A stretch of 32,307 bases of DNA from a virus. A program made the position numbers and the translations under genes. A model generated the notes under the pieces. The model searched no databases. It was given only the letters and a program-made list of their open reading frames with translations, and was not told where the DNA came from. The stretch spans positions 1 through 32,307 of the IMG/VR virus record IMGVR_UViG_3300042507_001439; one strand, given 5' to 3'. Of this stretch, positions 10,087 to 32,234 are shown piece by piece (the stretch's first letter is position 1; the number at the start of each line of letters is the position of its first letter).

Positions 10087-10338
10087 ATGGCGCGTTTTGA
10101 CGAAAAACATTACAAACTATTAAGAGCAATCCACGCAAATGGGGGTAGCCCGTGCGAATCAATGCCTGAATTATTTTTCCCTGAAGACATTTCAGACCCT
10201 ACGCGAAAAAAGTTAGCTACTATTTTGGCTAAAAAAATCTGCAACACGTGTCCAATCAAAATGGAATGTTTTAGATATGCCGTTGAATCTGGACAAAAAT
10301 ATGGCATCTGGGGCGGAACGTCACCTAACGAACGCTAA
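10087..10338 (+). CDS. whiB: WhiB-like Fe-S transcription regulator
   Basis: Product of 83 residues. Four cysteines (C near residue 23 in GGSPCES, then CNTCPIKMEC at about 56-65) fit the WhiB pattern C-xn-C-x2-C-x5-C that binds a 4Fe-4S cluster, followed by the GIWGG turn near 77-81. WhiB proteins exist only in actinobacteria and their phages, and bind sigma factor A to alter promoter use. This is the only gene on the plus strand and it stands alone between the two leftward blocks. It has a strong AAGGAGG ribosome site. The basic tail after GIWGG is short, as in other phage versions. Phage TM4 WhiB is known to repress host whiB2; whether this one acts similarly is inference. Confidence 0.93.
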   Translation: MARFDEKHYKLLRAIHANGGSPCESMPELFFPEDISDPTRKKLATILAKKICNTCPIKMECFRYAVESGQKYGIWGGTSPNER

Positions 10339-11715: not shown

Positions 11716-12234
11716 CTAAGAGATGATGTAAAGGCTTGCGGTTGAGTTTTCGACTAAATTTAGAGAACTATCGCTAATAGTCAGCGAGGTAATGACATTG
11801 GTGTTATTCCATCGCCCTGCTGTAATTTGTTGCCAAATAGTATCGGCAGTAGAGGAATTATTTTCCACGACAGTATCTATTGAAATAGACTTAGCCGCAC
11901 TTGTGGCGTAATTGCTTATGTAAATTAGATTGTTAGAAAATGTGCTTGCTGTCGTAGATACGCCGTTTATTGGGAAAACGATTCTGTCCTGATTTGTCTC
12001 GTTATCAGAACCAGCCGTAGCTCCATTTCCATACAGGTTTCTTTGCGAGTAGTTGGTTCCACTTACTTCGCCGTTTATGTGCAACCTGACATTTCTTACG
12101 CTTCCGCTACCGGTTGGTAATCTGCCGCTAACCAAAACCAGAAGGTCCTTTCCTGTGCCAGCAATTCCAGTAAAACTTATTGAAGCAGCACCGCCCGAAC
12201 CGACTGTTACTGTGCTTACAAGTGTCATAGCCAT
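11716..12234 (-). CDS. Tail-tip protein, third copy of a tandem paralogue family
   Basis: Product of 172 residues, rich in Ser, Thr, Asn and Gly, all beta by appearance. It aligns with the two genes upstream: SISFTGIAGTGKDLLVLVSG, VSGTNYSQRNLYGNG, and NTNVITSLTISD near the C terminus match the same blocks in the other copies. It is the most diverged, and ends SLYIIS where the others end with IYGI or LYGIV. The position after the minor tail proteins suggests a receptor-binding or adhesion role on the tail tip, which remains inference. Confidence 0.62.
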   Translation of the reverse strand: MAMTLVSTVTVGSGGAASISFTGIAGTGKDLLVLVSGRLPTGSGSVRNVRLHINGEVSGTNYSQRNLYGNGATAGSDNETNQDRIVFPINGVSTTASTFSNNLIYISNYATSAAKSISIDTVVENNSSTADTIWQQITAGRWNNTNVITSLTISDSSLNLVENSTASLYIIS

Positions 12235-12236
12235 GA

Positions 12237-12731
12237 TTAGCTCACTATTCCGTATAGGTAAAAAGTTGTTCCACTGGCAAAGCTATTAGTTGTAGACCGA
12301 ACTTCAACACTTGTAATTGCACTTGTGTTAGCCCATATAGCAGCAGCAGCAATAACCCCATAAACACCATTACTATTTTCGGAAATCAAAACTGTTTTGT
12401 GTTTATCTGTAGCCGAATAATCCATTATCTGAAAAATTTGATGATTACGCTGTTCGGTATTTGAAAAAGCTAATTCAGTTGAAATAACTGTTTTTGATGT
12501 TCCAGTAGAAGAAGAAGCGGCTGTTCCGCTACCCCTCATTCTTACAAAAGAATAATTAGTTCCAGAATCAGAATTGAAACGCAAATCGGCGTTTATTTCT
12601 CCGCCATTTCCCAGACCGTTCACTACAACAATCAAATCTCGATAACTAGCGGTGATTGAGGTAAATGAAACAGAAGAACTGGCCGTTCCTAGAACATTAC
12701 TTGCTATCAAATCATAAGTCGGGGTTGGCAT
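12237..12731 (-). CDS. Tail-tip protein, second copy of a tandem paralogue family
   Basis: Product of 164 residues. Conserved blocks shared with its neighbours are YDLIASNVLGTASSSVSFTS, the NSDSGTNYSFVRMRGSGTA loop, an IMDY strand in the middle, and AITSVEVRSTTNSFASGTTF with LYGIV at the end. The pattern looks like a jelly-roll or beta-sandwich virion protein. No signal or membrane segment is present. It lies two bases upstream of the third copy and 18 bases after the first. Confidence 0.65.
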   Translation of the reverse strand: MPTPTYDLIASNVLGTASSSVSFTSITASYRDLIVVVNGLGNGGEINADLRFNSDSGTNYSFVRMRGSGTAASSSTGTSKTVISTELAFSNTEQRNHQIFQIMDYSATDKHKTVLISENSNGVYGVIAAAAIWANTSAITSVEVRSTTNSFASGTTFYLYGIVS

Positions 12732-12749: not shown

Positions 12750-13310
12750 CTACTTGATACCGTAAATCGAAAAGCGTGAGCCAGAAACAAAACTATCAGA
12801 ACCAAAAGGCTTGACTGTAATTGAAGTAACAGCAGCGGTATTATTCCATAAAGTGCTAAATAAAAAGATGCTGCTGTTTGGGGCACCAACCGCCCCGGTC
12901 AATGACCTAATTGTGGTGTTCTTATTTGTGTTTGTATAATCCAAAATGTCAATAATTCCAGCACCAAAAATGTTCGCACCAGCATTACCACCTGATGCTA
13001 AATAGAGCACACTTGCTTGAGTCGCATTCAAAGTGCTGCTAGAGGTCACATTTGAGCCATCGCCTCTGAGCCAATGTCTTGAGTAATTTGAACCAGAATC
13101 CCCATTTAGCCTAATTGCCATTGTTTGTTCTGTGCTGTTATCCCTACCAACGACACGAACCTGTAAGTGCTTATAGGTCTGGTCAATGTTGCTGAATGTA
13201 ACAGTTGCAGTAGTTGTGCTCAAAACAGTAGTTTCAAGCAGGTCAAAAGAACCACCCCCACCTGCTGCACCTGCTCCTGCAACAGCAAGAACTCCTAAAG
13301 GAATAGGCAT
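12750..13310 (-). CDS. Tail-tip protein, first copy of a tandem paralogue family
   Basis: Product of 186 residues. A hydrophobic glycine-rich leader (MPIPLGVLAVAGAGAAGGGG) precedes the shared domain, which starts FDLLETTVLSTTTATVTFSN and includes RLNGDSGSNYSRHWLRGDG, IIDILDYTNTNK, and AVTSITVKPFGSDSF with RFSIYGIK at the end. The leader may attach the protein to the tail or to other copies; it does not look like a classical signal peptide. Related copies follow immediately downstream. The start shares one base with the preceding fibre gene. Confidence 0.65.
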   Translation of the reverse strand: MPIPLGVLAVAGAGAAGGGGSFDLLETTVLSTTTATVTFSNIDQTYKHLQVRVVGRDNSTEQTMAIRLNGDSGSNYSRHWLRGDGSNVTSSSTLNATQASVLYLASGGNAGANIFGAGIIDILDYTNTNKNTTIRSLTGAVGAPNSSIFLFSTLWNNTAAVTSITVKPFGSDSFVSGSRFSIYGIK

Positions 13311-19561: not shown

Positions 19562-19969
19562 TTAGCTAGCTAAAACACGAACATTGAATTCGGCAGCTGC
19601 GTAATTTATGTCTGAAATTAGCACCGAACCATAGTTCGTCATTTCGGACACTATGCAGTCGAAGGCCTTGCCGCCTAATGTCCTATCTGATTCTACCGCA
19701 AGACTAATAGACGAACTTCCCGTGCTTGAACAATAAGCATCAAGGTTTGTTTGTGCGCTTCTTTCATCCACTTTTCCAACCAAAATTTGAACGCTGAAAT
19801 TGTATTCAGTCATTCCACGTTTGAAATCTTGATGATATTGAACGCGATTCAATTGAACAATGGCAATCGGTGGATTTGGGTTGTCTGGAATAATCGCTGA
19901 AGTCCTTAGTCCAGAAATTGTTGCAAGATTAGCAACTAAACCATTACGCAATTCTGTAATGGATGCCAT
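19562..19969 (-). CDS. Tail terminator protein
   Basis: Product of 135 residues beginning MASITELRNGLVANLATISG, a start typical of tail terminators that cap the tail tube and join it to the head. Blocks IPDNPNPPIAIVQLNRVQYH and YNFSVQILVGKVDERSAQ, then SDINYAAAEFNVRVLAS, match the alpha-beta pattern of the gpU-like family. The gene overlaps the head-tail connector stop as TAATG and is followed by the major tail gene, the usual order. Confidence 0.78.
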   Translation of the reverse strand: MASITELRNGLVANLATISGLRTSAIIPDNPNPPIAIVQLNRVQYHQDFKRGMTEYNFSVQILVGKVDERSAQTNLDAYCSSTGSSSISLAVESDRTLGGKAFDCIVSEMTNYGSVLISDINYAAAEFNVRVLAS

Positions 19970-20568
19970 TATGCCAGCCTAAATTTCCGATACGGCTCAA
20001 TAAGGTGTTGAACATCTGGGTCAAGACGATAACCAACACGGATGCTTCCCATTTCGCCTGAAATGATTCCCAATGGAGAATCCAAGCGTTTGAAAATTCT
20101 GCCAGCCAAAATGATGGTTGCTTGTGTTACGGCAATAGGCACGCTAGACCATCCCCAAACACCCGTTAGACGCACGGTGGCTTCGCCTTGACGATAAGGG
20201 AACAAATAGTCTTCAATCGCCCTTATTTGCGTGTAGGACGTCACCAAACCGCCCGCACGCCCGTTTAGGGGTTCTGCTTGCCAATCTGACGTGTCCCACG
20301 TGGTATCAAATGATTCGCCGTCTTCAGATGTTTCAACAAGACTTAGCGAAATAAAGTCTTCCGTAGGACAAACCCATTCATCAAGCGGGGCAAAAATTTT
20401 AGTTGCAGTCCCGCCGTTATAAAAATAGCGTTCGGTATAAGAATCAATTTGACGCGATGCAGATTCGACAGCCATTTCCAACAATGCGTCATCCACAGTA
20501 TCCGCGTTTGCAATACCGATAGCGGCTTTGATTTGTGCAAGGGTTGCGTAACCATTACTTATAGCCAT
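19969..20568 (-). CDS. Head-tail connector (gp6-like adaptor)
   Basis: Product of 199 residues. The helical start YATLAQIKAAIGIANADTVD and LLEMAVESASRQIDSYTERY is that of gp6/gp15-type adaptors, which bind beneath the portal ring. A beta middle (WQAEPLNGRAGGLV, TVRLTGVWGWSSVP) and helices (TQATIILAGRIFKRLDSPLG) follow, with IRVGYRLDPDVQHLIEPYRK at the end, which is very common in this family. It has a good AGGAAAAA ribosome site. The gene is the first of the connector-tail block after the sugar cluster. Confidence 0.83.
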   Translation of the reverse strand: MAISNGYATLAQIKAAIGIANADTVDDALLEMAVESASRQIDSYTERYFYNGGTATKIFAPLDEWVCPTEDFISLSLVETSEDGESFDTTWDTSDWQAEPLNGRAGGLVTSYTQIRAIEDYLFPYRQGEATVRLTGVWGWSSVPIAVTQATIILAGRIFKRLDSPLGIISGEMGSIRVGYRLDPDVQHLIEPYRKFRLA

Positions 20569-20590: not shown

Positions 20591-21016
20591 TTATTCTAGT
20601 CCTCGAATTCTGGCTTTCAGTTTGGTTGTGCTTATGCCTTGCGTATAAGGAATGTAAATCAATGATAGGGAATTTATGTCCAACCAATCTTGGTCAAATC
20701 CCATTTGTTTGTAATAATCACGCTTTGCCCAATCAGAACCAATTGCAATAATGTCAGGCATCGCTTTAGAAATAGCAATGGTACTGTTTTCGCCACCTTC
20801 ATTTGGGATTACTTTCCAAACATACTTACAAGCTTCCAAAACGGCTTTGCGTTCTGAATAATCCATAATTGGCGGCTTGCCTTTGTATTTAGTTATAAAT
20901 TCATCCGTGTTTAGCGACACAATCACAGAACCCAATTCGTTGCATTTGCGAAGAAAATTGACGTGACCTGAATGAAACAAATCAAACGTGCCACCTGTGT
21001 AAATAATTAGTCCCAT
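20591..21016 (-). CDS. Cytidylyltransferase-like nucleotidyltransferase (TagD/RfaE-type)
   Basis: Product of 141 residues. The start MGLIIYTGGTFDLFHSGHVN has the TGTFD-HxGH site of the glycerol-3-phosphate cytidylyltransferase and RfaE-type group, where HSGH binds the nucleotide phosphates. The C-terminal ISTTKLKARI matches the ISTT-(I/L)--RI motif of the same group. These enzymes join CTP (or ATP) to a phosphate group to give activated alcohols or sugars. The start at 21016 overlaps the GT2 stop region by ten bases; the longer reading to 21046 uses a TTG and adds a basic leader. The substrate is unknown. It is the last gene of the sugar cluster. Confidence 0.85.
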   Translation of the reverse strand: MGLIIYTGGTFDLFHSGHVNFLRKCNELGSVIVSLNTDEFITKYKGKPPIMDYSERKAVLEACKYVWKVIPNEGGENSTIAISKAMPDIIAIGSDWAKRDYYKQMGFDQDWLDINSLSLIYIPYTQGISTTKLKARIRGLE

Positions 21017-21654
21017 CGGTGTTCTCGTCTTCTTGTTAGCGACCAACCGTGGTCTGAATAATCATTGTTAGCAATCTTTTGTCTATACAAAGCGCCATTG
21101 CTTTGGTAAGTGTATTCGTTGCGAATTTCATTGTTGTCGTATTTAGTTGCTGAATTGATGTGATGCACTTTTGCTGGCAAATTTACTTTTTGAATTCCAG
21201 CATTATCAGCACGCCGTTCAAAATCATTGTCGCAATAGTAAAGCGGATAAAACGCTTCATCAAACAACCCAATGCGCTTCACCACTTCTTCGCCTAATAC
21301 AAATGCTGACCAAACAGGCGAACAATCAGTAAATGAAATGGCATTTGGTTTTGCTAATTCGTCAATTGTTTTCAACGCGCCCGCTTCAAAACGGCAATCA
21401 TCATTGACCAACAACCAACGCGATGCGTATGGCGTTGCTTTGATAATCAAATTCCAAGCAGCTTGCAATCCCAAACCGAATGGGACTTCAATGTGCCACG
21501 TATTTGTTACAAACGGCGATTCTTTAGGTTTCCAATTTTTTTTGCCTGAATTATTGACAACAATCAAATGTTCTACTGGATAATCAATTGAATCAATCAA
21601 AGCATCAGCTAAATCAAAACGACTTAGCGTTGGGAATCCTAAAACTTCAATCAT
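21007..21654 (-). CDS. Family 2-like glycosyltransferase
   Basis: Product of 215 residues. The start MIEVLGFPTLSRFDLADALI, then VEHLIVVNNSGKK and FGLGLQAAWNLIIKATPYAS, follow the GT-A fold. The probable metal-binding DxD is in WLLVNDDCRF near residue 108, and the acceptor-side block is FDEAFYPLYYCDNDFERRAD, close to the ED-D signature of GT2 enzymes. It would transfer a sugar from a nucleotide donor. There is no membrane segment. Its ATG overlaps the end of the GT4 gene as ATGA, and its own end overlaps the cytidylyltransferase, so the three are translated together. Confidence 0.85.
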   Translation of the reverse strand: MIEVLGFPTLSRFDLADALIDSIDYPVEHLIVVNNSGKKNWKPKESPFVTNTWHIEVPFGLGLQAAWNLIIKATPYASRWLLVNDDCRFEAGALKTIDELAKPNAISFTDCSPVWSAFVLGEEVVKRIGLFDEAFYPLYYCDNDFERRADNAGIQKVNLPAKVHHINSATKYDNNEIRNEYTYQSNGALYRQKIANNDYSDHGWSLTRRREHRWD

Positions 21655-22853
21655 TGCAATTCACGCAAAAATGGCATCCAATATTGATTCCAAACTTTTT
21701 GAGAATCAAATTGTTGAGCAAATTTTCTTGCTTTTTCTGAATGACGCCCTTCTGATTTGCTGACTTCGTAAGCGTTTTCCAATTGCGAAACGATTGAAGC
21801 AATTGATGGTGTTTTCCACCACGCCAATTGAGCTTCATCCCAAAACAATTGACCCGATACACGGAAGCCATCTTCTGCAATCAAATCTTTTGGTCCAGTC
21901 CAATCGGTAGCAATCACGCGTGTGCCACAAGCTTGCGCTTCAATGATTGGGATTTCGAAGCCACCGCCCAAAGACAATTGCAAGCAAACATCTGCTGTTG
22001 AATAGAAACCAGCCAAATCTTTGGCATCAATTCCAACCCTGTAATCAACTGGGTCTGGGAAAATGATTGAATTCATATCCAATCCGCACGCTTCAGCCAA
22101 ACGCGGTAAATGAAACCCGCCATAAATGCCTTTTGGCTCTGTGTGAATGTATAAATAAGCGTTTGGCACTTTTTGTTTGAATACGGCAAACGCCATCAAT
22201 GCTTCAGCAAAAGCTTTGCGATGAATTGATTTGTTTGCTTTATTTGCTGAATTCATTACAACCAAAAAATCATCTTCGCCCACGCCTAAAAATTCGCGTG
22301 CATTTTGTTTGCCGATTTTGTCGGTTGGTTTGAATGTTGAAACGGTATCAATTGAATGTGGAATGTAATGTCCCGCAATGCCGTTTTCTTCCAATTGTTC
22401 TTTGCCGAACGGTGACATTGCAACGGGTATCACGTTGTCTTTTTCTAACCATCGTTTGACCGCTGGTGGCATTGAAATGTGGTCTAACGGCACCCACGAA
22501 ATGATTCGAGGAAATTCTTCTTTTTGCCAAATTTCTGGTTTCAAAGTCCAAACATCGCCCAATGTCAAAATGTAATCTTTAGCATTTGATTTGGCTGATT
22601 CGATTTTGTGAGCAACAGCTAATGAATCTTGCGACATCGGTTCGTAACCGCGTGCGTAATGCGGTATTTCACCAAACGCTGTTTTGTGTGTTGAATTGTT
22701 TCCTTCTAATCCCCAATTGGATGCGTGTGCAGCATTGACGCCGTGCTTGACAAGAAAATCCAAAAGGATTCCGATTTGCATTCCGTAACCCGTTGGTTGA
22801 TACGGCGAATTTGACCACGTGGTGATTGTCAAATCTAATTTTTCTGGCTTCAT
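21651..22853 (-). CDS. Family 4-like glycosyltransferase
   Basis: Product of 400 residues, GT-B type. The N-terminal half includes PYQPTGYGMQIGILLDFLVK, as in GT4 enzymes that begin with a glycine-rich loop. The C-terminal half has VVMNSANKANKSIHRKAFAE, PDPVDYRVGIDAKDLAGFYS, and GGGFEIPIIEAQACGTRVIA with the E-x7-E-type donor site (FEIPIIEAQACG). This enzyme probably uses a nucleotide sugar to glycosylate a phage or host acceptor. It follows a terminator after the major capsid gene, with a good AAAGGAAATT ribosome site. Its codons favour AAA for lysine, unlike the capsid gene beside it. Confidence 0.88.
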   Translation of the reverse strand: MKPEKLDLTITTWSNSPYQPTGYGMQIGILLDFLVKHGVNAAHASNWGLEGNNSTHKTAFGEIPHYARGYEPMSQDSLAVAHKIESAKSNAKDYILTLGDVWTLKPEIWQKEEFPRIISWVPLDHISMPPAVKRWLEKDNVIPVAMSPFGKEQLEENGIAGHYIPHSIDTVSTFKPTDKIGKQNAREFLGVGEDDFLVVMNSANKANKSIHRKAFAEALMAFAVFKQKVPNAYLYIHTEPKGIYGGFHLPRLAEACGLDMNSIIFPDPVDYRVGIDAKDLAGFYSTADVCLQLSLGGGFEIPIIEAQACGTRVIATDWTGPKDLIAEDGFRVSGQLFWDEAQLAWWKTPSIASIVSQLENAYEVSKSEGRHSEKARKFAQQFDSQKVWNQYWMPFLRELQ

Positions 22854-22877: not shown

Positions 22878-22911
22878 GCAAAAACCCCCACTTTTTGAGT
22901 GAGGGTTTTGC
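22878..22911 (-). terminator. Terminator after the major capsid gene
   Basis: A near-perfect hairpin (GCAAAAACCCCCACT against AGTGAGGGTTTTGC) stands between the capsid stop codon and the GT4 start. A T run lies inside the 3' arm on the minus strand. It would reduce read-through from the highly expressed capsid gene into the sugar cluster. Confidence 0.8.
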
Positions 22912-22929: not shown

Positions 22930-24105
22930 CTATGCAGCCGAGCCTCGGAAAATCTTGAAGTGGTCTTGGTGCGAGAGGTTTCCGTCTACGCGAATCAAGA
23001 AACGGAAAACAGCAAGGTCATTTGCGAACTTGTAGTCATCGCTTCTATCTACTCTTAGACCGCCAGCAACGCGAACCTTGTAGCTTGGTAGGTAACCAAA
23101 ACCAACAGATGCAGCAGCTGAACCAACAGCAGCCATTCCTGGGTTTTCATTTACCCTGAAGCCAAGTAGGGTGTCTGGCTGTCCAGCCTGAAGTGAAGGC
23201 TGGAATAGGTACTGACCATCGTTGTCCTTCAGCTTACGAGCGTTGCGGATAGCAGATGGTGACATTAGCCAACCAGTTCCCTGCAATCTGCGAACAGCGC
23301 CATCTACTGAATAGACAAGGTCAATCAGCTGGTCTGCGGTGAATAGACCACCAGCAATTGTTCCAGCTACACCAGTTCCAGCTGCGGTTACGATACCAGT
23401 TGGGGCATTGCTGCCACCTGCACCAGTTGTAAGAGCAGCATTGATGGCAACACCGATTGAGTTACCAGCTGCACGAGCTAGAACCTCAGCGATATCTACG
23501 CCACCATCTTCGATTAGCTCTCGAGCTACTGGAACTAGGAAGCCGTACTTCTTTGCGCCAAGAGTGATTGAGCTGAAGGTTGGCTCTGACTCGTCAATCT
23601 CAGCACCTGGTGCTTCGTAACCAGCGGTTCCGTAAGCGGTCAGGGTTGGAATCTTTAGGTCTTCACCAGACTGGGTGTTGAATACCTCAGAAACATCTAG
23701 CATTGGTCCAACCTCACGAGCAAGGTCATAAACTCTTGCAACGAAAGACTGTGGTACTACACCAGATGAGTTTGATGGGGTTAGTGTTCCACGAGTTTCG
23801 AAGTTGTGAGAACGAATCTCACCTCTTGCAAGGGAACGAACGTAGTCGTAGTCAGACTTGTTTGTCTCGGCTACGGCAAAGTCGGAAGAAGCAGCGGCGG
23901 CTTTTGCCTCGCGCTCTTCTGCTCTGCGAATTGTCTCAATTGCAGCTGCACGCTCGTCAAGCTCAGAATTGATGCGGTCAAACTTCTCTTGTTCCTCAGA
24001 AGTTAGGTCGCGCTTCTCTGTAGCGGCGGTGTCAAGAAGTGCCTTCGCTTCTTCCCACGCCTTTGAGCGAGCTTCTGCCTGTGCCTTGATAAAGGACTGT
24101 GACAT
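22930..24105 (-). CDS. Major capsid protein (HK97 fold)
   Basis: Product of 391 residues. A charged helical N terminus (residues 1-90; EEQEKFDRINSELDERAAAI) corresponds to the delta scaffold domain that is cut off during maturation. The HK97 body starts near residue 100 with GTLTPSNSSGVVPQSFVAR, and continues with TAYGTAGYEAPGAEI, FSSITLGAKKYGFLVPVARE and AINAALTTGAGGSNAPTGI. The 3' end VRVAGGLRVDRSDDYKFA and LAVFRFLIRVDGN is typical. It forms the icosahedral shell. The ribosome site TTAGGAGA is strong, and 14 of 15 lysines are AAG, consistent with high expression. Confidence 0.95.
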   Translation of the reverse strand: MSQSFIKAQAEARSKAWEEAKALLDTAATEKRDLTSEEQEKFDRINSELDERAAAIETIRRAEEREAKAAAASSDFAVAETNKSDYDYVRSLARGEIRSHNFETRGTLTPSNSSGVVPQSFVARVYDLAREVGPMLDVSEVFNTQSGEDLKIPTLTAYGTAGYEAPGAEIDESEPTFSSITLGAKKYGFLVPVARELIEDGGVDIAEVLARAAGNSIGVAINAALTTGAGGSNAPTGIVTAAGTGVAGTIAGGLFTADQLIDLVYSVDGAVRRLQGTGWLMSPSAIRNARKLKDNDGQYLFQPSLQAGQPDTLLGFRVNENPGMAAVGSAAASVGFGYLPSYKVRVAGGLRVDRSDDYKFANDLAVFRFLIRVDGNLSHQDHFKIFRGSAA

Positions 24106-30588: not shown

Positions 30589-31713
30589 TTATTTTCTCGG
30601 TGACAGTATTGGCAACAATGTTGCATCGGGTTTTCCAGCGAATTTGAAACCAACAGTTACGCGCCCGCGAGATGAAACCAAACCTTTTTGGCTGTTTGGT
30701 CCAACTTTGGCAACGCGTGACGGCTTACGAACCATTGTCCAATCTGGCGATGAATTCAACGCCCTGATTCTTGCTGGGTGTGATGTGGTTGTGTATGTAT
30801 CGAAACCTTGAGCTTTCAACGCAGCACAAATTTGATTGACAAATTTGTTAGCGATGCCAACGCCTTGAAAATCAGGTAACACAACCGTTCGGCTAATTCG
30901 TTTTGCGTTTTGAATTTTGCCGTGGACTAATGGAAGAATTGCTGTCATAGCGGCTGGTTGTCCTTCGATACAAGCAACATAAATTTGGGCTGATTTATTT
31001 AGGTCACCTGTCAAATAGTGATGGCGACTGAATGTGTTCCACGCTTCATAGTTTGCTCGAAAAATTGAGAGCTGAATTGGTGGTCGTTGCCGAAGACCCT
31101 CCCATCGAAACGTGCCAGTATGTGGCTCGTAAGTCCAATCTGGTTGCAGCCATTCTTGGACGTCATAATGACAACCGACAGCAACGAATTTTTGCCCGCG
31201 TCTGCGAATGGTTTTTGCTATTGCGTGTGACCCGATTTTCGCCACAGTTCGGTCAATCACAGATGTGAATTCATCCACAACGGCAATTGAATCGGGACCT
31301 GTTTCAGCAAGAACACGTGCCATTGTCACGCGAAATTGCTCACCATTGGACAACGTGTGAAACGGACGCAACCAAGCTGGTGGCGAACTAAATCCCACAG
31401 ATGACAGCAATTCTGTGACTTCGCGAATTGACATTGATTTGGGAAAATCGTCAATCACGGCTTTGTTTTTTGACCAAACGAAATTATCTAAATGCTGCAA
31501 TTCATTTGGAAACATTTCTTTGGCGATTGTGGATTTACCTGCGCCCGAAGGTCCGACAATTAGCCCGATGTTCCAATCTCGCGAATTCAAATCGGGGATG
31601 TTCAAAGCAATTTCTGTTAGCGATTTTTCTGAAGGTTGCAAATCGAACATACCTTCAAGCTGCATTACACGGGCAGAACGCTCAATCGCAGATTCTAATT
31701 TGATTGTTTTCAT
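30589..31713 (-). CDS. ABC-type ATPase fused to a GNAT (possibly Mom-like) domain
   Basis: Product of 374 residues. Residues 1-210 are an ABC-type ATPase: IGLIVGPSGAGKSTIAKEMF (Walker A about 53-61), HTLSNGEQFRVTMARVLAE (ABC signature about 122), DSIAVVDEFTSVIDRTVAKI (Walker B and D-loop), VAVGCHYDVQEWL (H-loop). Residues about 218-350 are a GNAT fold: YEAWNTFSRHHYLTGDL, then ARIYVACIEGQPAAM-like strand, and SRTVVLPDFQGVGIANKFVN, whose Q-G-x-G-I-A is the acyl-CoA loop. No membrane or transporter subunit accompanies it. The HHYL motif and fold recall phage Mom-type DNA-modifying enzymes, but this is a hypothesis. It lies between ParB-like and terS genes with ATGA overlaps. Confidence 0.78.
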   Translation of the reverse strand: MKTIKLESAIERSARVMQLEGMFDLQPSEKSLTEIALNIPDLNSRDWNIGLIVGPSGAGKSTIAKEMFPNELQHLDNFVWSKNKAVIDDFPKSMSIREVTELLSSVGFSSPPAWLRPFHTLSNGEQFRVTMARVLAETGPDSIAVVDEFTSVIDRTVAKIGSHAIAKTIRRRGQKFVAVGCHYDVQEWLQPDWTYEPHTGTFRWEGLRQRPPIQLSIFRANYEAWNTFSRHHYLTGDLNKSAQIYVACIEGQPAAMTAILPLVHGKIQNAKRISRTVVLPDFQGVGIANKFVNQICAALKAQGFDTYTTTSHPARIRALNSSPDWTMVRKPSRVAKVGPNSQKGLVSSRGRVTVGFKFAGKPDATLLPILSPRK

Positions 31714-32234
31714 ATGACAATTGCCCTGACCTTAAATCCTTCTTTGCTGAATCTGTCCAAAAGTTCTTGCTGTTGAACTTCATTGGCACATTCAATGACA
31801 ACTTCCCAACGCTCATCCCATTGCATTTCTTGAGTGTCGGCGATTTTGTCGGTGTTTTCTTTTTGTGCAAAGCCAAATTTTTCAATTGGGAAATCAGCTT
31901 CGTTTAGTTCTAACAATTGAACGCCAAGAATTTCTTCGTCCCATTTTGCTAATTCAGCGGTGCGATTGTCTGCCAAAGCGTAAGCTTTGATTTGGTCATC
32001 TGACCAATCGGCAGGAATTCGAACACAAGCAATTTTTTTCCAATCAAGCAATTTAGCTGCTTGCACGGTGCCATTTCCAGCAACAACCAGATTGTTGGCG
32101 TCAATCACAATGGGCTTACGTTGCCCGAAAATTTCCAAACTGCCCGCGATTGCGCTTAGGTTCTTCGCATCGTGGGTTCTGGCATTATTCGGGTCTAACG
32201 TCAGGCTGTCAAGAGGTAATTCTTCGATTTTCAT
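31710..32234 (-). CDS. ParB/Srx-like N-terminal domain protein
   Basis: Product of 174 residues. The order LDSLTLDPNNARTHDAKNLS, SLEIFGQRKPIVIDANNLVV, AGNGTVQAAKLLDWKKIACV, ALADNRTAELAKWDEEIL is that of the ParB N-terminal (ParB/sulfiredoxin) fold; the G-x-R and AGNG-R-AA type nucleotide site is seen as GQRKP and AGNGTVQAA. It lacks the HTH centre-binding domain and the C-terminal dimer domain of partition ParB, so it is not a partition protein. Such proteins bind or cut nucleotides or DNA and occur beside phage DNA-modifying enzymes. AAAGGAAAAA precedes the ATG. It is the first gene of the late operon. Confidence 0.8.
   Translation of the reverse strand: MKIEELPLDSLTLDPNNARTHDAKNLSAIAGSLEIFGQRKPIVIDANNLVVAGNGTVQAAKLLDWKKIACVRIPADWSDDQIKAYALADNRTAELAKWDEEILGVQLLELNEADFPIEKFGFAQKENTDKIADTQEMQWDERWEVVIECANEVQQQELLDRFSKEGFKVRAIVI

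Follow-up and report, generated by a model that had tools for sequence, protein, structure and literature searches.

Few phage isolates are known whose particles are glycosylated. Virion glycosylation has been reported for the mycobacteriophages Che8, Corndog and Myrna (Freeman et al. 2023, as cited in PMC12363180 and PMC11256854). Glycosyltransferases are required for capsid glycosylation in mycobacteriophages (PMC12363180; PMC11256854), and in some of them the tail-tube proteins are glycosylated (PMC12363180). In the mycobacteriophage Maravista, the glycosyltransferase genes lie near the genome end and not beside the capsid gene (PMC11256854).

The DNA analysed here (the window, positions 1-32,307) is the whole of the virus record IMGVR_UViG_3300042507_001439. 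Its structural genes are of siphophage type and lie on the minus strand. A WhiB-like regulator gene (10087-10338, plus strand) stands amid minus-strand genes; such a gene is a sign of an actinobacterial host (PMC10202952). Three tandem paralogues in the tail region (11716-12234, 12237-12731 and 12750-13310, minus strand; 164-186 aa, 31-33% mutual identity) are likely repeated tail or decoration proteins. A 374-aa protein (30589-31713, minus strand; phrog_11143, unknown function) combines an ABC-type ATPase half with a GNAT acetyltransferase half and is adjoined by a ParB-like protein (31710-32234, minus strand).

Enzymes encoded between capsid and connector

The locus has two fixed neighbours, both on the minus strand: on the left the major capsid protein with HK97 fold (22930-24105; PF05065 E=2.5e-54, phrog_10), on the right a gp6-like head-tail connector (19969-20568; PF05135 4e-6, phrog_442). 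Between them lie, on the same strand, the genes for a GT4-family glycosyltransferase (21651-22853; PF13692 E=2.1e-10, phrog_2170 3.9e-32), a small GT2-like glycosyltransferase of 215 residues with GT-A fold (21007-21654; phrog_29879 1.2e-30) and a 141-residue cytidylyltransferase of the TagD/Fom1/RfaE superfamily (20591-21016; PF01467 9e-18). GT4 is the constant gene of this module, and the other two are the first and second gene of the cassette. An earlier note on this DNA had described the trio as translationally coupled and predicted a glycan-modifying module with an activated donor, directed at the virion or the host surface. Both readings are supported. The genes are intact and adjacent; GT4 overlaps GT2 by 4 bp (ATGA), and the overlap of GT2 with the cytidylyltransferase is 10 bp. 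The most probable start codon of the cytidylyltransferase is the ATG at 21016 rather than the TTG at 21046. Where synonymous change is unsaturated, dN/dS is 0.05-0.19 for the three genes; they are under purifying selection.

The catalytic residues, whose loss the earlier note would have counted against its prediction, are retained in GT2 (D86, D142/D144) and in the cytidylyltransferase (HxGH, G[ST]DW, IS[ST]T). For GT4, which scores 41.5 bits against PF13692 (cutoff 27) and 30.7 against PF00534 (cutoff 26.4), this is only partly so. The second Glu of its EX7E motif (E305) is kept in 71/72 sequences. The first has moved by three positions throughout a clade: the window and 31 relatives have Gly at residue 297 and a Glu at 300 instead. 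Within residues 295-306, 39 loci have a GEGFGIP-like and 32 loci, the window among them, a GGGFEIP-like sequence, and this two-state split tracks the capsid clade, not the cassette. The shift may alter donor use by the GT4 of the window's clade.

GT2 has no match in Pfam. Its AlphaFold model (pLDDT 83) retrieved GT-A transferases from the PDB with Foldseek (best E=2.7e-9, TMq about 0.6), and the acidic donor-site residues D86, D142 and D144 are invariant in our alignment (A3), so that both the GT-A fold and an acidic donor-site motif are present.

The cytidylyltransferase belongs to its superfamily by a wide score (65.2 bits against PF01467, cutoff 21), and its HxGH and IS[ST]T motifs are conserved in the 67 viral members examined. 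It was rejected as a plain TagD or heptose enzyme, as it stays below the curated cutoffs of both the TagD equivalog (TIGR01518, 88.6 bits vs 165.4) and the RfaE/HldE heptose-1-phosphate adenylyltransferase (TIGR02199, 66.3 bits vs 181.5). The nearest structures to its model are the Fom1 CyTase (5x3d, TMq 0.81) and TagD (1coz, TMq 0.77); the phosphonate enzyme Fom1 and TagD are about equally near to it, which makes CDP-glycerol, a product considered in the earlier note, no more than a candidate. With TagD/TarD and the Fom1 domain it shares the fold and the HxGH and GIS[ST]T motifs. The longer motif PYTxGIS[ST]T is common to the viral enzyme and Fom1, whereas TagD has Arg in place of the viral Tyr (RTxGISTT), and an invariant extra stretch after G[ST]DW is the viral family's own and distinguishes it from TagD and Fom1 alike. 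Scores below both cutoffs, the Fom1/TagD-like model and these motifs together suggest that a small phospho-alcohol or phosphonate is a likelier substrate than a sugar-1-phosphate. Of 67 distinct copies of the gene, 66 abut an upstream ORF. To judge by length and motifs, this ORF is usually GT2-like, and in a few copies it is a GT4 or an unrelated gene. The search for a cellular context of the cytidylyltransferase gave only seven genome contigs; in all but one of them the neighbours, read from ORF starts, carry no weight. The exception, L258 (JAIXXV010000018.1), was binned in a pond bacterial MAG and is itself a phage of the window's clade; judged by its ORFs, it has the order capsid, GT4, GT2, cytidylyltransferase, connector.

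No membrane segment was found in the trio or in the main cassette enzymes of the relatives (maximum 19-residue hydropathy 0.75-1.43). The hallmarks of Gtr-type seroconversion, i.e. a membrane flippase and a membrane-bound transferase, are likewise absent from the trio and the main cassette enzymes.

A constant GT4 gene and an exchangeable cassette

The trio had been read as an insertion, set apart by a terminator and by its codons. The terminator is real, and so is the codon contrast; what they had been taken to mean does not stand. The intrinsic-terminator-like hairpin at about 22878-22911 (minus strand), at the 3' end of the capsid gene, emerged from ViennaRNA folding and is absent from the consensus scan listing. 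A stable hairpin occurs at the same place in 71/71 relatives folded, with U-runs in those examples that were inspected. The hairpin thus belongs to the 3' end of the capsid gene, where it has the appearance of an ordinary end to the capsid transcription unit, and does not mark an island. As for the codons, it is the capsid gene that stands out (AAA:AAG 1:14, GAA:GAG 10:17), whereas AAA makes up 75-93% of the Lys codons in the trio, like in most other genes of the phage. Codon use as a sign of foreign DNA is therefore ruled out for the trio.

The capsid gene (22930-24105, minus strand) is alone in using AAG/GAG codons, and it lies between two terminator-like hairpins (24236-24208 and about 22911-22878). 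Codons and hairpins are as for a highly expressed separate transcript.

The word "inserted" is misleading, since a GT4 stands behind the capsid gene in the whole clade. Scanning viral contigs by the capsid protein alone yielded 40 loci at a capsid identity of at least 43%, and GT4 lies directly after the capsid gene in all 39 that extend past it. At capsid identities of 36% or less, GT4 was not found by profile search in loci of which some are on contigs ending soon after the capsid. When the distinct alleles of all scans are pooled, among them scans with a bias toward GT4, GT2 and the cytidylyltransferase, 88/88 capsid-connector intervals begin with GT4. Within the clade, neither the capsid-only nor the connector-only scan turned up a capsid gene lacking GT4 in the slot behind it; one locus (L097), which shares no more than 30 residues of capsid at the edge of its contig, is uninformative. 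In L184, L185 and L205 the gap between capsid gene and GT4 measures 382-1009 bases, compared to about 80 elsewhere. These wider gaps indicate that additional DNA can be accommodated immediately ahead of GT4.

In contrast to GT4 itself, the interval between its stop codon and the start of the connector is exchangeable. It occurs in at least ten layouts. Besides GT2 plus cytidylyltransferase, as in the window, there are a divergent GT2 paired with a GalE-like epimerase, a further GT2 paired with an RmlD-like reductase, and one of several SAM methyltransferases. Mixed cassettes also occur, e.g. the RmlD set plus an extra GT2 and cytidylyltransferase. Every cassette enzyme is of a type involved in making, attaching or methylating sugars. 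Within each of the common layouts the interval hardly varies in length (1068-1096, 1476-1491 and 1665-1686 bases). In the connector-only scan, 76 of the 80 loci have cassette genes directly upstream, and in the other 4 the contig starts too near the connector. The statement of the earlier note that no sugar-synthesis genes are present beyond the cytidylyltransferase is hence correct for the window itself and does not extend to its relatives, which hold an epimerase or an RmlD-like reductase in the same slot.

How precise the exchange is can be seen in a pair of loci from different metagenomes, L030 and L031. Their DNA is 96.1% identical in the capsid gene, 94.8% in GT4 and 94.6% in the connector, yet L030 carries GT2 plus cytidylyltransferase and L031 GT2 plus epimerase, and the cassettes are wholly different. 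Similarity stops at the GT4 stop codon and returns at the connector start. On a capsid tree of 72 rows, the label GT2 plus cytidylyltransferase takes 13 changes, 10 of which are forced by well-supported branches; the cassette labels are more clustered than in shuffles. GT4 itself is sometimes exchanged along with the cassette, as L236 and L205 share 92.6% of their capsid residues but only 52% of their GT4 residues. The contigs are metagenomic and partial and an assembly error is possible at single joins, yet the pattern recurs in many contigs. A trio moving as one unit, a possibility that the earlier note wished to check by a survey of gene order, is thus rejected: GT4 stays beside the capsid gene, and the part behind it is swapped for other enzyme sets.

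Possible targets of the module

GT4 always behind the capsid gene, followed by exchangeable sets of sugar genes, suggests that this group of aquatic actinobacterial viruses coats its shells with glycans and changes the chemistry of the coat by swapping gene cassettes. Glycosylation of the virion head in the cytosol, with GT4 performing the constant step and the cassette supplying a variable cap, is the interpretation we lean towards, with some reserve. The order capsid gene, terminator, constant GT4, exchangeable cassette and connector would then represent a head-linked glycan module, whose enzymes would modify a protein of the phage head, with the capsid protein as the most probable acceptor, in the cytosol and at the time of late expression. 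Drawing on a nucleotide-sugar of the host, GT4 would attach a first sugar or core common to all. In the window, the cytidylyltransferase would produce a small phospho-alcohol or phosphonate in CDP-activated form (an NDP-sugar being less likely), and GT2 would extend or cap the glycan; relatives would reach another cap via an epimerase, an RmlD-like reductase or a methyltransferase. A cassette swap would change the outer chemistry of the virion and leave capsid gene and GT4 untouched.

Head-protein glycosylation is favoured because of the fixed linkage to the capsid gene, the lack of membrane parts and the precedent in mycobacteriophages (PMC12363180, PMC11256854). Against it counts that the Maravista glycosyltransferase genes lie away from the capsid gene, so that position is not a rule, and that GT4 is sometimes exchanged together with the cassette. 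GT2-type enzymes, moreover, are not the usual transferases for CDP-alcohols, which makes the partnership of cytidylyltransferase and GT2 hard to account for. Finally, the position in the late operon equally suits a modification of the host surface. Possibly, the module alters surface glycopolymers of the host (wall teichoic acid-like or other) late in infection and thereby blocks superinfection or releases progeny, with a cassette diversity that follows the wall types of host strains. TagD-like enzymes take part in making teichoic acids, wall glycosyltransferases are numerous and horizontally exchanged in streamlined aquatic Microbacteriaceae and could drive a matching diversity of cassettes (PMC6106888), and superinfection exclusion was named as one option for the glycosyltransferases of Nanopelagicales phages (PMC10202952). 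Yet the trio and the main cassette enzymes come without a flippase, a membrane-bound transferase or a membrane segment, and GT4 is strictly linked to the capsid gene. Hence we regard this main rival as unlikely, while taking it seriously.

The acceptor could also be another virion protein, i.e. the tail tube, a tail fibre or the receptor-binding protein, in which case the cassette would tune adsorption. The tail-tube glycosylation of some mycobacteriophages (PMC12363180) and the location of the cassette at the border of head and tail genes speak for such a target; it nevertheless seems improbable to us, as GT4 abuts the capsid gene and was never beside tail genes in the loci seen. Glycosylation of DNA bases is known from T4-type phages. 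Protection of phage DNA against host nucleases by this means has been proposed for the Nanopelagicales phage glycosyltransferases (PMC10202952), but would fit the present locus poorly: the genes sit in the structural block, no enzyme for modified-base precursors was recognised among the window genes searched (several small ORFs lay outside this search), and cassettes with a reductase or methyltransferase as well as an activated alcohol do not match a scheme of base glucosylation. We therefore hold a DNA target to be very improbable, and the layout questions the default view of such genes as DNA-protecting or metabolic.

Head glycosylation could be part of a more specific picture, which we put forward tentatively and which may well turn out to be wrong. 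The locus would be a virion glycotype locus of an aquatic actinophage clade, in which a capsid-linked priming transferase is kept and outer-glycan cassettes are swapped under selection for diversity, like in bacterial O-antigen and capsule loci, with one cassette using a CDP-activated phospho-alcohol or phosphonate, and not a plain sugar, to cap the glycan of the capsid. The fixed GT4 and the clean exchange of cassettes between near-identical genomes amount to natural swap experiments. In this clade, direct tests thus become possible of the acceptor, of the glycan and of its selective value, be it in adsorption, decay, grazing or host defence.

Comparison with known systems

Che8, Corndog and Myrna resemble the window phage in being actinobacterial siphophages with glycosyltransferases of their own, and head or tail-tube proteins are the acceptors there and the proposed ones here. 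They differ in that a fixed capsid-side site with exchangeable tailoring enzymes is not described for them in the texts cited above, and the tblastn matches of the window's GT4 and GT2 include no mycobacteriophage record. The Streptomyces phages Jay2Jay and Jada have a related cytidylyltransferase (55-59% identical) right after two short glycosyltransferase genes, but this cluster is not beside the capsid gene within the regions read. The glycosyltransferase adjoining the Streptomyces phage enzyme was rejected as a relative of GT2, having no BLASTP similarity to it.

In the cyanophage S-CBS4 and the Microcystis phage Mae-JY09, a GT4 homologue (25-30% identical) heads a small cluster in the head-gene region. 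It is followed by a GT2 homologue and a methyltransferase in S-CBS4 and by a nucleotide-sugar epimerase in Mae-JY09; a 210-aa protein of Mae-JY09 was dismissed as a GT2 for want of hhalign support. Unlike the window phage, both have other capsid families and cyanobacterial hosts, and the S-CBS4 cluster lies after the portal and an unknown gene, before the capsid gene. The same slot is occupied in the Pontimonas phage phiPsal1 (MG835450), with capsid, GT4 (44% identical), GT2 (37%) and neck protein, although the phage is left without discussion in its own paper; there a methyltransferase on the opposite strand takes the place of the cytidylyltransferase.

The literature searched, which covered openly accessible papers, contained no account of a fixed GT4 combined with an exchangeable cassette. 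Glycan modules of phages are known as such; what appears to be new, relative to this literature, is the capsid-linked and cassette-exchanging architecture.
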